Positions 11,568 to 15,255 of a stretch of DNA of 25,099 nucleotides are shown here, in pieces. The notes below the pieces were generated by a model. That model ran no database searches. It had not been told where the DNA came from and saw only the letters and a program-made list of their open reading frames with translations. Numbering within the stretch: the stretch's first letter is position 1; every line of letters starts with the position of its first letter. Source of the DNA: a virus; IMG/VR virus record IMGVR_UViG_3300025101_000169, positions 1 through 25,099 of that record; one strand, given 5' to 3'. The position numbers were made by a program, and so were the translations under genes.

Positions 11568-11608
11568 AAAAAAATACCCCTAGTTATTAAGTTAGCTAGG
11601 GGTTTTTT
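11568..11608. terminator. Bidirectional intrinsic terminator between convergent operons
   Basis: CCCCTAG (11577-11583) pairs with CTAGGGG (11596-11602) across a 12-base loop. T6 follows at 11603-11608 and A7 precedes at 11568-11574. The stem therefore ends in a U-run when transcribed in either direction. It lies between the last + strand frame (stop at 11548) and the last - strand gene (stop at 11611), where convergent transcripts must end. Confidence 0.88.
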
Positions 11609-11610
11609 AT

Positions 11611-11826
11611 TTATTTAACAGATTTATTTTCAATCTTTAGTTCAGACATTTCGTCTTTCACTTCTTTTATTTCTTTTTCATAATGCTCTTTTTGTTCTAC
11701 AAGATAATCTAATCTAGCTTGTAGTTTCTTTTGTTGAGCTTCCTGATACATTTTATCAGATACGACCATTACTTTTGGTCTCATTAAATCAAAATGATTA
11801 TAGAACATGTTGTCCAATAACATCAT
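11611..11826 (-). CDS. Small coiled-coil protein, 71 aa
   Basis: AAAGGAG lies 7 bases before the ATG. After a short N-terminus containing MRPKVMVVSDKMYQEA, residues 27-65 form a charged, heptad-like coiled coil (ARLDYLVEQKEHYEKEIKEV...). It is the last gene of the - strand block and ends at the bidirectional terminator. The product has no TM segment or enzymatic motif. I do not recognise a named family, and the function is unknown. Its distance from pqqA (111 bases) is one of the larger gaps in the block. Confidence 0.6.
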   Translation of the reverse strand: MMLLDNMFYNHFDLMRPKVMVVSDKMYQEAQQKKLQARLDYLVEQKEHYEKEIKEVKDEMSELKIENKSVK

Positions 11827-11937: not shown

Positions 11938-12018
11938 TTACTTTTCAGCACAAGCATATGAGTTGATTTCTAAACCTACAGAAATTTCTGCGATAATAGG
12001 TTTTGTCCATGCAGTCAT
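11938..12018 (-). CDS. pqqA: PqqA-like coenzyme PQQ precursor peptide, 26 aa
   Basis: The 26-residue peptide starts MTAWTKPIIAEISV, continues GLEINSY and ends ACAEK. PqqA peptides are 22-30 residues, start W-x-x-P, and contain G-[LM]-E-[IV]-x-x-Y; the Glu and Tyr are cross-linked by the radical-SAM enzyme PqqE with chaperone PqqD and become PQQ, the cofactor of methanol, glucose and other periplasmic dehydrogenases. Here W4, P7, G15, E17 and Y21 all fit, and WTKPIIAEISVGLEINSY aligns closely with remembered methylotroph PqqA. The ribosome site GAAGGAG lies 8 bases upstream, inside the last codons of the holin gene, whose stop is one base away. No pqqB-F gene is in the window, so host enzymes would be needed. 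It may boost host PQQ, act as a decoy, or be another modified peptide. Confidence 0.82.
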   Translation of the reverse strand: MTAWTKPIIAEISVGLEINSYACAEK

Positions 12019-12019
12019 A

Positions 12020-12391
12020 TTATTTCTCCTTCCATGTTTTAATTCCTTTCTCAGCACCTCTACTTATGATGTAGCCACCAATACCAATCTGTAATAAATC
12101 AAACAGTTTCATAATAACTGCGTCTGATAAATTCTCAGGATGTATTCCAAACCAATACATAAACAAAAGCATCAAGAAAGATAACATTGTTAATGGTCTC
12201 CAATTACGTTGTAACCAACCTTCACCTTTAGCTTCAGCAACGACCACAGATGCAGCAGCTTTTTCTATATCTGCTGAATGTGTAACAAGTGCCTTGTTTA
12301 ATTCTGATTGAGCCTTTGCTTGACCAGCTTTATCAGGAATTATTCTATCAATTACTTTACCTAATATAGGTGCAATCATTGGTAATAACAT
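12020..12391 (-). CDS. Holin of the three-TM (GTA-type) family, 123 aa
   Basis: GGGAG stands 7 bases before the ATG. The N-terminus (MLLPMIAPILGKVIDRIIPD) is hydrophobic. A charged Ala/Gln/Glu-rich helix follows, then AEAKGEGWLQRNWRPLTMLS and two membrane helices (about residues 66-83 and 93-111). The pattern [AE]..s.W.QRNWRP...l....l is the signature I know from the 'holin of 3TMs, for gene-transfer release' family (PF11351). Such proteins open the inner membrane at the end of infection. No endolysin gene is recognisable beside it. It lies in the - strand block far from the + strand virion genes, and it is translationally linked to the pqqA-like gene. Confidence 0.8.
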   Translation of the reverse strand: MLLPMIAPILGKVIDRIIPDKAGQAKAQSELNKALVTHSADIEKAAASVVVAEAKGEGWLQRNWRPLTMLSFLMLLFMYWFGIHPENLSDAVIMKLFDLLQIGIGGYIISRGAEKGIKTWKEK

Positions 12392-12431: not shown

Positions 12432-13007
12432 TTAGAAAAAAAGAGTTAAATTATTATTTTTGTTCATTTTACATTTACCTTCAAGGCAAATTAAGTCATT
12501 GGTTTCACTAATCTTTTCATAAGTCTTATGAAGAGGACTCGTATAGAAATATAACGAGCCTTCCCTCATAGGTATAAAATATTTTTTAGTAGCAGGTCTG
12601 TTATAATAAAATAAACCTGAACTAGAATTACCTATATGTATAGGTAACACAAAGTAGCTATCAGCTTTATGGTTTAAATTATAGTAAGTTCCATCCTCTT
12701 GTATAATCTCAAATGCAGGTGATGAATATGTTTCTTCAAATGTTAAATCATCAACGTACATATTATTTAATACTTGTTTTATTTTAAATAATAATGATGG
12801 AAACTTTTCAAATATAATAGGATTGTTCGTAAGACATTTATCTTTATAAGTATCTTCAGTATCTGAATCTTCTTTTCCTGAACCTAATGATAATCTATCA
12901 GAATATTTTGACCAGGAATCTTTTAAATCCAATACTGATTTATAAATTGTTTTACAATCTGTATCTTCTATAAAATCTTTAATCGTTATTGAAGAGAGTA
13001 TTTTCAT
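12432..13007 (-). CDS. Unknown protein with a possible double-stranded beta-helix domain, 191 aa
   Basis: The frame is open further upstream to 13118, but I choose the ATG at 13007: AAAGGA lies about 11 bases upstream, and the overlap with the preceding gene falls to 29 bases. The N-terminal half is polar and helical. The C-terminal half looks beta-rich (TYYNLNHKADSYFVLPIHIG, SGLFYYN, YFIPMREGSLYFYTSPLHKT), the strand pattern of a cupin/2-oxoglutarate-oxygenase jelly roll, with H157 (SPLHKTYEK) where a distal iron ligand would sit. A proper H-x-D motif and the usual 2OG-binding Arg are not evident, so I do not call it an enzyme. Its place after two sugar-modifying genes hints at a role in the same modification. 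Confidence 0.5.
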   Translation of the reverse strand: MKILSSITIKDFIEDTDCKTIYKSVLDLKDSWSKYSDRLSLGSGKEDSDTEDTYKDKCLTNNPIIFEKFPSLLFKIKQVLNNMYVDDLTFEETYSSPAFEIIQEDGTYYNLNHKADSYFVLPIHIGNSSSGLFYYNRPATKKYFIPMREGSLYFYTSPLHKTYEKISETNDLICLEGKCKMNKNNNLTLFF

Positions 13008-15255
13008 ATTTAGGATGTTCCTTTCTACCACCAGTTTTCCACAACTCAGAAACAAGAGTACCCTCACCATATAGTTCCATATGCATATCAACATCTTGTC
13101 TTTGAAATAATTTTTCACAGTCTTGTGCCATAGCTAGTAACTCACCTGTAGTCCAGAACTTCTTATTATTAGTAGTAACGTGTAAGTATTTACCTTTACC
13201 TGTTGAACTATCAACTGCATCTTTATCTTTAGGCTCATCCATTGAACAATCAAAACCATATAGTTTAAAGTTTCTAAATCCTAATGTGTGTCCAACACTA
13301 ATGGCTCTCATAGCTGCACAAGTACCACCAGTTAATAGAACTGTATCATCAGGTATACCTAATTCTTTTGGTATAGTAACTTTATTATCTGTATTCTTCT
13401 CAACAATAGCATCTGAGTAAGCATTCCAACCCACTATCTTTGCACTCTTATCTTTTAAATAATCTACAACTGAGGTATCAGTCATAGATGATACAAAGAA
13501 TATAGTCTCTTTAGGTATATCTTTAAATAATTCTTTACGAACAATCCCATGTGTACTTGTACCTTCAATAGGTCTGGGGTCAAGTATGTTACATGCCCAA
13601 GGAACTATACCTTCTTTCAAAAGCATAGGTAGTGAATGTTTAACACACATGATTTTATCTTTAGTTGATTTAAGATAATCTTTATAATTTAAAAAAGAAC
13701 TACCACCTGATACTATGTTAAGTACCTCTCCATGTGGTCTAGCTTTAGTTAACCATTTATTAATTGACTGTACATTATTTTTTATATTGTTTCTAATATA
13801 ATCAGTAGGCATACAGTCTTTTGGTTTAACAATTATTGGAACGTGATTGAAACTTTCAGGGAGTTTATCAAGACTAGATTTATGAAGAACGATAGCAAGG
13901 TGAGTAACACCACCACCTGCCACTGGGTCACTAGATGGAAGAACTTTTTTGCGTAGCTTTTTATCAAGGGCATCAAATACTTTATTCGTTCCTTTATGTT
14001 CATCAACAACTTCCTTTCCTTTGTCATCTTTAGTAAAGTAATCGTCAAACACAACAACAGGTAAATCTTTCGTCATGTTGTAATCATGTTGAACAGTATC
14101 AAAGCTATGTCCACCATCAAGATAAGCTATGTCAAAATCTTTTTGTTGTGTTAGTGTTACTTTAGTATCACCTTTAACTAATTTAAATTCAAAGTCTTTG
14201 TTCATTTTATCTTTAACAAAAGATTTAAATTCTTTTAGTCTAGTACTAACTGCTTCATAAAGATTGTGTGGTTTAGTATTCATTTCAGTTGCATCAGTAA
14301 ATTCATCTGCATCTTCAAATAAATCATAACCTTCATAATAAACTTTGTCTACGTTGTCAAAAGCTGCCAGTGCCATTTCAATAGCACGACCACCATTCCA
14401 TGTACCTGTCTCCAGTATTCTTGAAAACTTGTAATGTCTGATGACATCAGCCAACTGTTTGTACCTCTTTGGACCAACGACATCAGGTGTGGTTTTGTTA
14501 GATAACAAATCCTTCCTATTGCCCTTGAAGTGTTCAAAGTAATCTGCCAAAGGAGAATTATTAAACGCATCTAAACCTCTCACTTCTGGTGTTAAACTAT
14601 GTTTCTTTAAACCATGTGCACCATAGATATTAAATAATCTTTCAAAGATAAATCCATCATGCCATTCTCTATATGAAAGAACTTCATGACTATTATAAAG
14701 ACCTCTCATATCTCCTAGTAAATCAAGGGGTGGGATAGTATTAAGATTAAAAGCCATGAAAGATGTTTCACTATAGTCCACATCTTTCCTACCTAAGTGG
14801 ACGAGTTCAGAACCTAGGGGAATGATTCCAAACAAGTCTTGTTTATTAACAGGCTTTCTAAGGATAATGTCAGCATCTAACCAAACTACCCACCCTACTT
14901 GTACACTCTTTTCTACCAACTTGAAGGAGAAGTCAGTCAGAGCATACACTTTGTGACACCATTTAATGGCATCTAATCTCCAGTTATAAGGCATCTTACC
15001 ACCTTCAGTACCATCATGAAGTTTCATTTCTTCACGATAGGTAATCATTTCGTCTACCTCATTAAGATTTCTAAATGTTATCTTGTCTGTTTTAGGAAAC
15101 TTTTTTATCTGTTCATCAGTAAAGTCATGATAGTAAGCAGTTAAATGTAAATCATCAGCCATATATTTTACAACTGAGTCAATCATTTTCTTTGCATAAG
15201 TTTCCCACCCTTTAGGATTAAAGGAAGTTACGATATTTATTGTGTCTTTATTCAT
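12979..15255 (-). CDS. Three-part fusion: GT-A glycosyltransferase, class I methyltransferase and DUF115/MptE-like domain, 758 aa
   Basis: Three modules are visible. Residues 1-250 look like a GT-A glycosyltransferase, with WLDADIIL (DAD, 127-129) as the metal/nucleotide-sugar site and EHFKGNRK near the end. Residues 255-460 look like a SAM methyltransferase of the Methyltransf_24 kind: motif I ILETGTWNGGR at 280-290, acidic strand DIAYLDGGHS at 375-384, then VVVFDDY. Residues 490-758 resemble DUF115/MptE-like Rossmann domains, related to flagellin Maf and sialyltransferase-type enzymes: LNIVSGGSS (512-520), LTGGTCAAMRAISVGHTLGF (641-660), LYGFDCS (665-671). It starts one base after the glycosyltransferase stop, with no evident Shine-Dalgarno, so translation is probably coupled. 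A plausible job is building or altering a glycan on the virion, the host surface or DNA; the substrate is unknown. Confidence 0.72.
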   Translation of the reverse strand: MNKDTINIVTSFNPKGWETYAKKMIDSVVKYMADDLHLTAYYHDFTDEQIKKFPKTDKITFRNLNEVDEMITYREEMKLHDGTEGGKMPYNWRLDAIKWCHKVYALTDFSFKLVEKSVQVGWVVWLDADIILRKPVNKQDLFGIIPLGSELVHLGRKDVDYSETSFMAFNLNTIPPLDLLGDMRGLYNSHEVLSYREWHDGFIFERLFNIYGAHGLKKHSLTPEVRGLDAFNNSPLADYFEHFKGNRKDLLSNKTTPDVVGPKRYKQLADVIRHYKFSRILETGTWNGGRAIEMALAAFDNVDKVYYEGYDLFEDADEFTDATEMNTKPHNLYEAVSTRLKEFKSFVKDKMNKDFEFKLVKGDTKVTLTQQKDFDIAYLDGGHSFDTVQHDYNMTKDLPVVVFDDYFTKDDKGKEVVDEHKGTNKVFDALDKKLRKKVLPSSDPVAGGGVTHLAIVLHKSSLDKLPESFNHVPIIVKPKDCMPTDYIRNNIKNNVQSINKWLTKARPHGEVLNIVSGGSSFLNYKDYLKSTKDKIMCVKHSLPMLLKEGIVPWACNILDPRPIEGTSTHGIVRKELFKDIPKETIFFVSSMTDTSVVDYLKDKSAKIVGWNAYSDAIVEKNTDNKVTIPKELGIPDDTVLLTGGTCAAMRAISVGHTLGFRNFKLYGFDCSMDEPKDKDAVDSSTGKGKYLHVTTNNKKFWTTGELLAMAQDCEKLFQRQDVDMHMELYGEGTLVSELWKTGGRKEHPKYENTLFNND

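Follow-up and report, generated by a model that had tools for sequence, protein, structure and literature searches.

What could a virus gain from a gene of 26 codons whose product resembles PqqA and whose start codon lies a single base behind the stop codon of a holin gene? PqqA peptides are 20-30 residues long and carry a Glu-x-x-x-Tyr pair that is the cross-link site of PqqE; they are consumed in PQQ synthesis, one peptide per PQQ. The window, by which we mean the whole stretch of 25,099 nucleotides analysed here, contains such an ORF (pqqA, MTAWTKPIIAEISVGLEINSYACAEK) at 11938..12018 on the minus strand, the plus strand across these positions containing stops. The gene lies within a viral record, the same 25 kb holding virion structural, DNA polymerase, primase-helicase and holin genes. 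Its translation bears out the 26 codons and the residues W4, P7, G15, E17 and Y21 described in an earlier sequence-only reading, which had named no strand, and E17 and Y21 stand at the family spacing within the 26 residues. Both profile models that this reading had proposed as a check recognise the peptide above their curated cut-offs, in support of the suggested PqqA identity: TIGR02107 at 38.6 bits (E=6.7e-10; cut-off 20 bits) and PF08042 at 34 bits (E=2.8e-08; cut-off 21.1 bits). Since six-frame searches with the PqqA profile returned a single match within the whole window record and none in 14 control genomes, the similarity, at these E-values, goes far beyond chance. By sequence criteria the ORF is confirmed as a true PqqA precursor gene; a PHROG search returned no family for the peptide.

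Relatives of the window were gathered by their holin and not by the peptide, which gave 30 loci among virus contigs from other metagenomes, 25 of them close. The synteny check that the earlier reading had called for places pqqA at the same spot, one base 3' of the holin stop, in 24 of the 25 close relatives, one copy being cut by the contig end. L022, a close relative of 56.7 kb, lacks pqqA on the entire contig, which indicates that the gene is dispensable, and five more distant or truncated holin relatives are without it. The 24 copies comprise 13 distinct DNA sequences; their overall pN/pS is 0.40, and amino-acid variation is limited to positions 2, 3, 5, 6 and 8-10. Variation at positions 7, 12, 14, 18, 19 and 20 is synonymous only, and residues 15-26 show no amino-acid difference, codons 18, 19 and 20 varying synonymously. 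The Glu-x-x-x-Tyr pair is invariant in the complete copies of the window clade found through the holin; these copies were used because, in the pattern-found set described below, W, P, G, E and Y are fixed by the search pattern itself. The ratio of 0.40 and the synonymous-only changes in the core argue that the gene encodes a protein and that selection acts on its PqqA core, and pqqA of the window clade is under purifying selection. The sequence-only reading had listed three observations that would speak against it (no profile match, an unconserved E-x-x-x-Y core in related phages, a non-coding substitution pattern), and none of them occurred.

The holin gene (12020..12391, minus strand) specifies a 123-residue protein of the GTA_holin_3TM type, which in profile searches scores 39.8 bits against PF11351 (cut-off 24.8) and matches phrog_3427 (lysis) at E=5e-25. 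Its 3' end reads ...AAA ACA TGG AAG GAG AAA TAA, followed by T and the ATG of pqqA. The AAGGAG ribosome-binding site of pqqA (12026..12031, minus strand), 7 nt 5' of the ATG, is thus formed by the holin codons AAG GAG, as the earlier reading had seen together with the one-base gap (TAA-T-ATG). The arrangement is common to all pqqA-bearing relatives, with an AAGGAA variant in L021-L026. Downstream of pqqA, in the same orientation, lies an ORF for a predicted coiled-coil protein of 71 residues (11611..11826, minus strand), present in 18 loci of relatives. It is followed by an inverted repeat that resembles a terminator, CCCCTAG / CTAGGGG flanked by runs of A and T (11577..11602), between two converging gene blocks; a terminator-like repeat is also found 3' of the holin in L022. 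No endolysin was recognised in the window by profile and PHROG searches. Elsewhere in the window, positions 12979-15255 (minus strand) encode a 758-residue protein that combines a methyltransferase (Methyltransf_24) with an MptE-like domain.

A degenerate DNA pattern for the W..P...G.E..Y spacing matched at least 120 viral stretches, and a short PqqA is encoded in 114 of the 120 matches listed, that is in at least 114 viral stretches; the peptides have 24-29 residues, with one of 59. Among the 114 copies listed, 112 are preceded by a Shine-Dalgarno-like site and 112 are shorter than 90 bases, most of them measuring 75-84 bases. Common gene callers usually apply a minimum of 90 bases, and the short length of most copies would explain both the missing PHROG and the apparent rarity of the gene in surveys. 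The window peptide had no tblastn match in 50,697 annotated phage records, and a C-type peptide of other phages gave chance-level partial matches only, with no isolate phage carrying a close PqqA among these annotated records.

The gene recurs in more than a hundred marine virus sequences, and its copies, at least 114, stand in several unrelated phage settings. Their neighbours comprise the window's holin family, a 136-residue GTA-type holin, a 122-residue protein that in relatives lies ahead of a lysozyme-like ORF (read from the DNA), portal, major capsid and terminase small subunit-like proteins, a fatty-acid-desaturase family protein and peroxiredoxin; a tmRNA lies beside pqqA in two loci, and iscU downstream of it in two (L046, L095). 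Outside the window clade, pqqA is found 3' of two further holin or holin-like genes; it occurs in 39 of 74 holin-2 relatives, in 9 of 12 close holin-3 relatives and in 0 of 66 distant ones. Viral pqqA is a flexible insert. The lysis coupling emphasised by the sequence-only reading is real in the window clade, but it is just one among several settings of the gene. Because the pqqA of other phages adjoins other holins, portal, terminase/capsid genes, tmRNA and iscU, the connection with lysis seems to mark one site that tolerates cargo and not the purpose of the gene. The direct coupling to the holin, together with the position behind two other holin or holin-like genes, could also suggest a peptide repurposed for lysis, acting perhaps as an antiholin or as a regulator of the holin, with a mere resemblance to PqqA. 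We find this highly improbable, since the peptide is also encoded well away from holins (behind portal, close to terminase/capsid, beside tmRNA or iscU) and its conserved features are those of a PqqE substrate.

Searches of 42 virus records recognised no PqqE and no PQQ alcohol dehydrogenase; as these records are fragments, the viruses may still lack or possess pqqB-E. Linkage of pqqA to other pqq genes, usual for the family although not strict, was not seen in these 42 records either; the operon is found in the likely hosts. A genome scan for the core located this PqqA type, among the matches listed, in marine alphaproteobacteria, and 22 of the 22 listed genomes that carry it belong to one order, HIMB59. 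The closest bacterial PqqA among the matches listed, from AG-907-I19 and MED657, is identical to the window peptide at 22 of 23 positions, and the common form present in MED-G10 (HIMB59) and many single-cell genomes at 21 of 23. Moreover, the iscU genes carried by relatives of the window share 81-89% identity with that of HIMB59; against 18 other genomes G069 reaches 82% and the remainder at most 51%. No iscU was recognised in the window itself. The identities of PqqA (22/23) and of the relatives' iscU (81-89%) suggest that the host of the window's virus is probably HIMB59-like. C-type peptides of other phages resemble instead those of Rhodospirillaceae/MarineAlpha genomes, among the matches listed.

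Among 40 host genomes tested, pqqE exceeds the cut-off in 33 and a PQQ alcohol dehydrogenase in 29. In HIMB59-order genomes pqqE adjoins a pqqA copy and xox genes, and most have pqqABCE beside an XoxF-type methanol dehydrogenase. In HIMB59 the gene order is pqqA-B-C-E, near a dehydrogenase gene with a WDYD motif; the best solved match of this dehydrogenase is the lanthanide-dependent XoxF 6oc5, and two genes at the locus are read as xoxJ and xoxG. This operon beside an XoxF homologue with WDYD lends support to the connection with XoxF-type methanol oxidation drawn by the earlier reading; the HIMB59 paper makes no mention of PQQ. Genomes of the order hold 1-5 pqqA copies, most of them outside the operon, which makes additional precursor genes a normal feature of HIMB59. 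Among the HIMB59-order genomes G031-G052, up to five pqqA genes occur in a small genome, mostly alone between unrelated genes, for example beside cobalamin genes.

Several scattered copies in the hosts could mean that loose pqqA genes enter phages as neutral cargo, bringing them no benefit, and the patchy presence in each lineage (none in L022, 39 of 74 among holin-2 relatives) would agree with this. Against it stand the purifying selection, with residues 15-26 free of amino-acid change, the ribosome site of 112 of the 114 listed copies and the many unrelated contexts, and we give this explanation very little chance. By its 22/23 match to HIMB59 PqqA and its substitution pattern, the window's pqqA is classed as host-derived and kept under selection.

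We regard it as probable that phage pqqA is a precursor-only auxiliary gene, which raises PQQ supply by means of the host's enzymes for XoxF-type or other quinoproteins. A true PqqA peptide would be made during infection, in the window clade from the lysis transcript through translational coupling to the holin. The phage would supply the substrate only, to be consumed one-for-one in PQQ making, and the host PqqE/PqqD, protease, PqqB and PqqC would convert it to PQQ. This PQQ would load XoxF-type methanol dehydrogenase or other quinoprotein dehydrogenases, which could help to sustain electron flow and energy supply until lysis. What we infer here, besides the host itself, is that its enzymes process the peptide, that PQQ rises and that the phage benefits. 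As one peptide is used per PQQ, a virus that brings PqqA alone can raise PQQ if PqqA is limiting, and the extra pqqA copies of the hosts fit such an effect. In favour of it, overexpression of pqqAB in Acetobacter raised PQQ by 29% (PMC7936290); the full operon gave a far greater increase, so that PqqA need not limit PQQ in HIMB59. A further counterpoint to a role in PQQ supply is that expression together with the holin comes late for a gene meant to aid metabolism.

That timing could suit a decoy, in which phage PqqA occupies PqqD/PqqE or the protease and so depresses PQQ and methanol oxidation in the host, or uses up SAM to no purpose: pqqA adjoins lysis genes, late expression could serve shutdown, and no other PQQ gene was found in the 42 virus records. 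A competitive decoy would however be expected to lose its reactive residues, whereas both of these, Glu and Tyr, are intact in the complete holin-found copies of the window clade and the peptide remains a near copy of the host substrate. We therefore consider a decoy unlikely, and the decoy or signal role suggested in the earlier reading finds no support. The supply of PQQ could also be genuine and yet be meant for quinoproteins other than XoxF, or take effect chiefly once lysis sets the PQQ free. Genomes that encode the C-type peptide do carry other PQQ alcohol dehydrogenase homologues, and the timing coincides with lysis; but the HIMB59 dehydrogenase gene beside pqq is XoxF-like and released PQQ would not favour the phage that makes the peptide, which leaves this variant very unlikely. 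If supply through host enzymes is the right reading, marine phages of HIMB59 and similar bacteria steer the cofactor supply of their hosts with one of the smallest known auxiliary genes, bringing a consumable substrate alone and leaving the chemistry to the host. Phage pqqA would then offer a simple test of whether the small methanol users of the ocean are limited in their PQQ by the supply of PqqA.

The sequence-only reading had allowed that similar phage genes might be known, and this is so (PMC7678222, PMC13188868). The Methylophilaceae phage population VP_266 of Lake Baikal carries PqqA with a methanol dehydrogenase (PMC7678222), and there too phage PqqA was proposed to support PQQ-dependent methanol oxidation. 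Unlike the window record, which has neither PqqE nor a PQQ dehydrogenase, VP_266 is a freshwater T4-like phage with its own methanol dehydrogenase, and the window peptide is of the marine alphaproteobacterial type. Viral contigs from reservoir sediment, compared here by habitat and interpretation, likewise list PqqA as virus-encoded, with pqqA, pqqE and pqqD, but come from another habitat and were read as phosphate solubilisation (PMC13188868). Among ocean RiPPs, a PqqA family is reported to be co-expressed with defence systems (PMC11118758). The window gene shares with the PqqA family (TIGR02107 / PF08042) its length, W-x-x-P start, G-x-E-x-x-x-Y core and a score far over the cut-offs; it differs in being viral, stand-alone and coupled to a holin rather than placed with pqqBCDE. 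Thus phage PqqA is not new as such; what is new is its scale, the probable host, the holin linkage and a covarying hairpin in other phages. Among the open-licence papers searched, none describes these phages, their coupling of pqqA to lysis or the hairpin.

This hairpin (model R1), of 27-32 nt and the form GTGG-n-CYGCGRYC / GRYAACCRGCAC, lies almost exclusively 5' of viral pqqA, in several other lineages and about 90 distinct places (for example L284:3343-3372, L366:3425-3456, L044:622-650 and L084:1369-1396). It starts shortly 3' of a -10-like box and ends 19-32 nt ahead of the pqqA start. A scan by the motif only, pooled with previously gathered loci, gave 92 distinct places, with pqqA 19-32 nt further on in 91, whereas in the last the contig breaks off. 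Of the ten pairs, nine are formed in every sequence with letters at both positions. Two-sided changes occur in four pairs, and 0 of 500 shuffles reach the observed covariation score, which related sequences can inflate. A -10-like hexamer stands 2-10 nt upstream in 50 of 64 cases against 13.8 expected, related sequences included. R1 was looked for in the window clade and in most loci with the C-type peptide, and among these it was found in L044 only; Rfam gave no match in the window or for the hairpin. We propose tentatively, as a possibility slightly short of an even chance, that pqqA of several other phage lineages is joined to a new kind of structured 5' leader RNA, the two forming a regulatory cassette in which the leader would protect or control the message and perhaps respond to PQQ; the window clade uses holin coupling instead of this leader. 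Of 40 host genomes, 39 lack the hairpin; the lone copy lies in the rpoH (sigma-32) leader of AG-896-A16 (L542 / G036:C2:10943-10982). A general origin in rpoH leaders was rejected, since 27 of 28 HIMB59-order rpoH loci lack the hairpin, AG-896-A16 being the one that has it.

Several further features were observed near viral pqqA. A phage tmRNA of the alphaproteobacterial (permuted) type lies just 5' of hairpin and pqqA at L084:1065-1356 and L161:6107-6390. Phage iscU (NifU_N) occurs near pqqA in L002, L009, L015, L021, L023-L026, L046 and L095, in some with an iscA-like gene (Fe-S_biosyn); PqqE itself is an iron-sulphur enzyme. In L091 and L148 the PqqA-like peptides end in a long C-terminal tail rich in Asp and Ser, and a viral contig of 265,895 bases (L133) encodes a Methylobacterium-like PqqA, MKWSAPIVQEVCVGMEVTSYDSAEIDTFN. 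Finally, upstream of pqqA in L067 and L117, and as a fragment in L044, lies a gene for a 354-residue membrane protein that has AlkB-like histidine boxes and belongs to the fatty-acid-desaturase family (PF00487); alkane hydroxylation followed by PQQ-dependent alcohol oxidation would make a striking pair.
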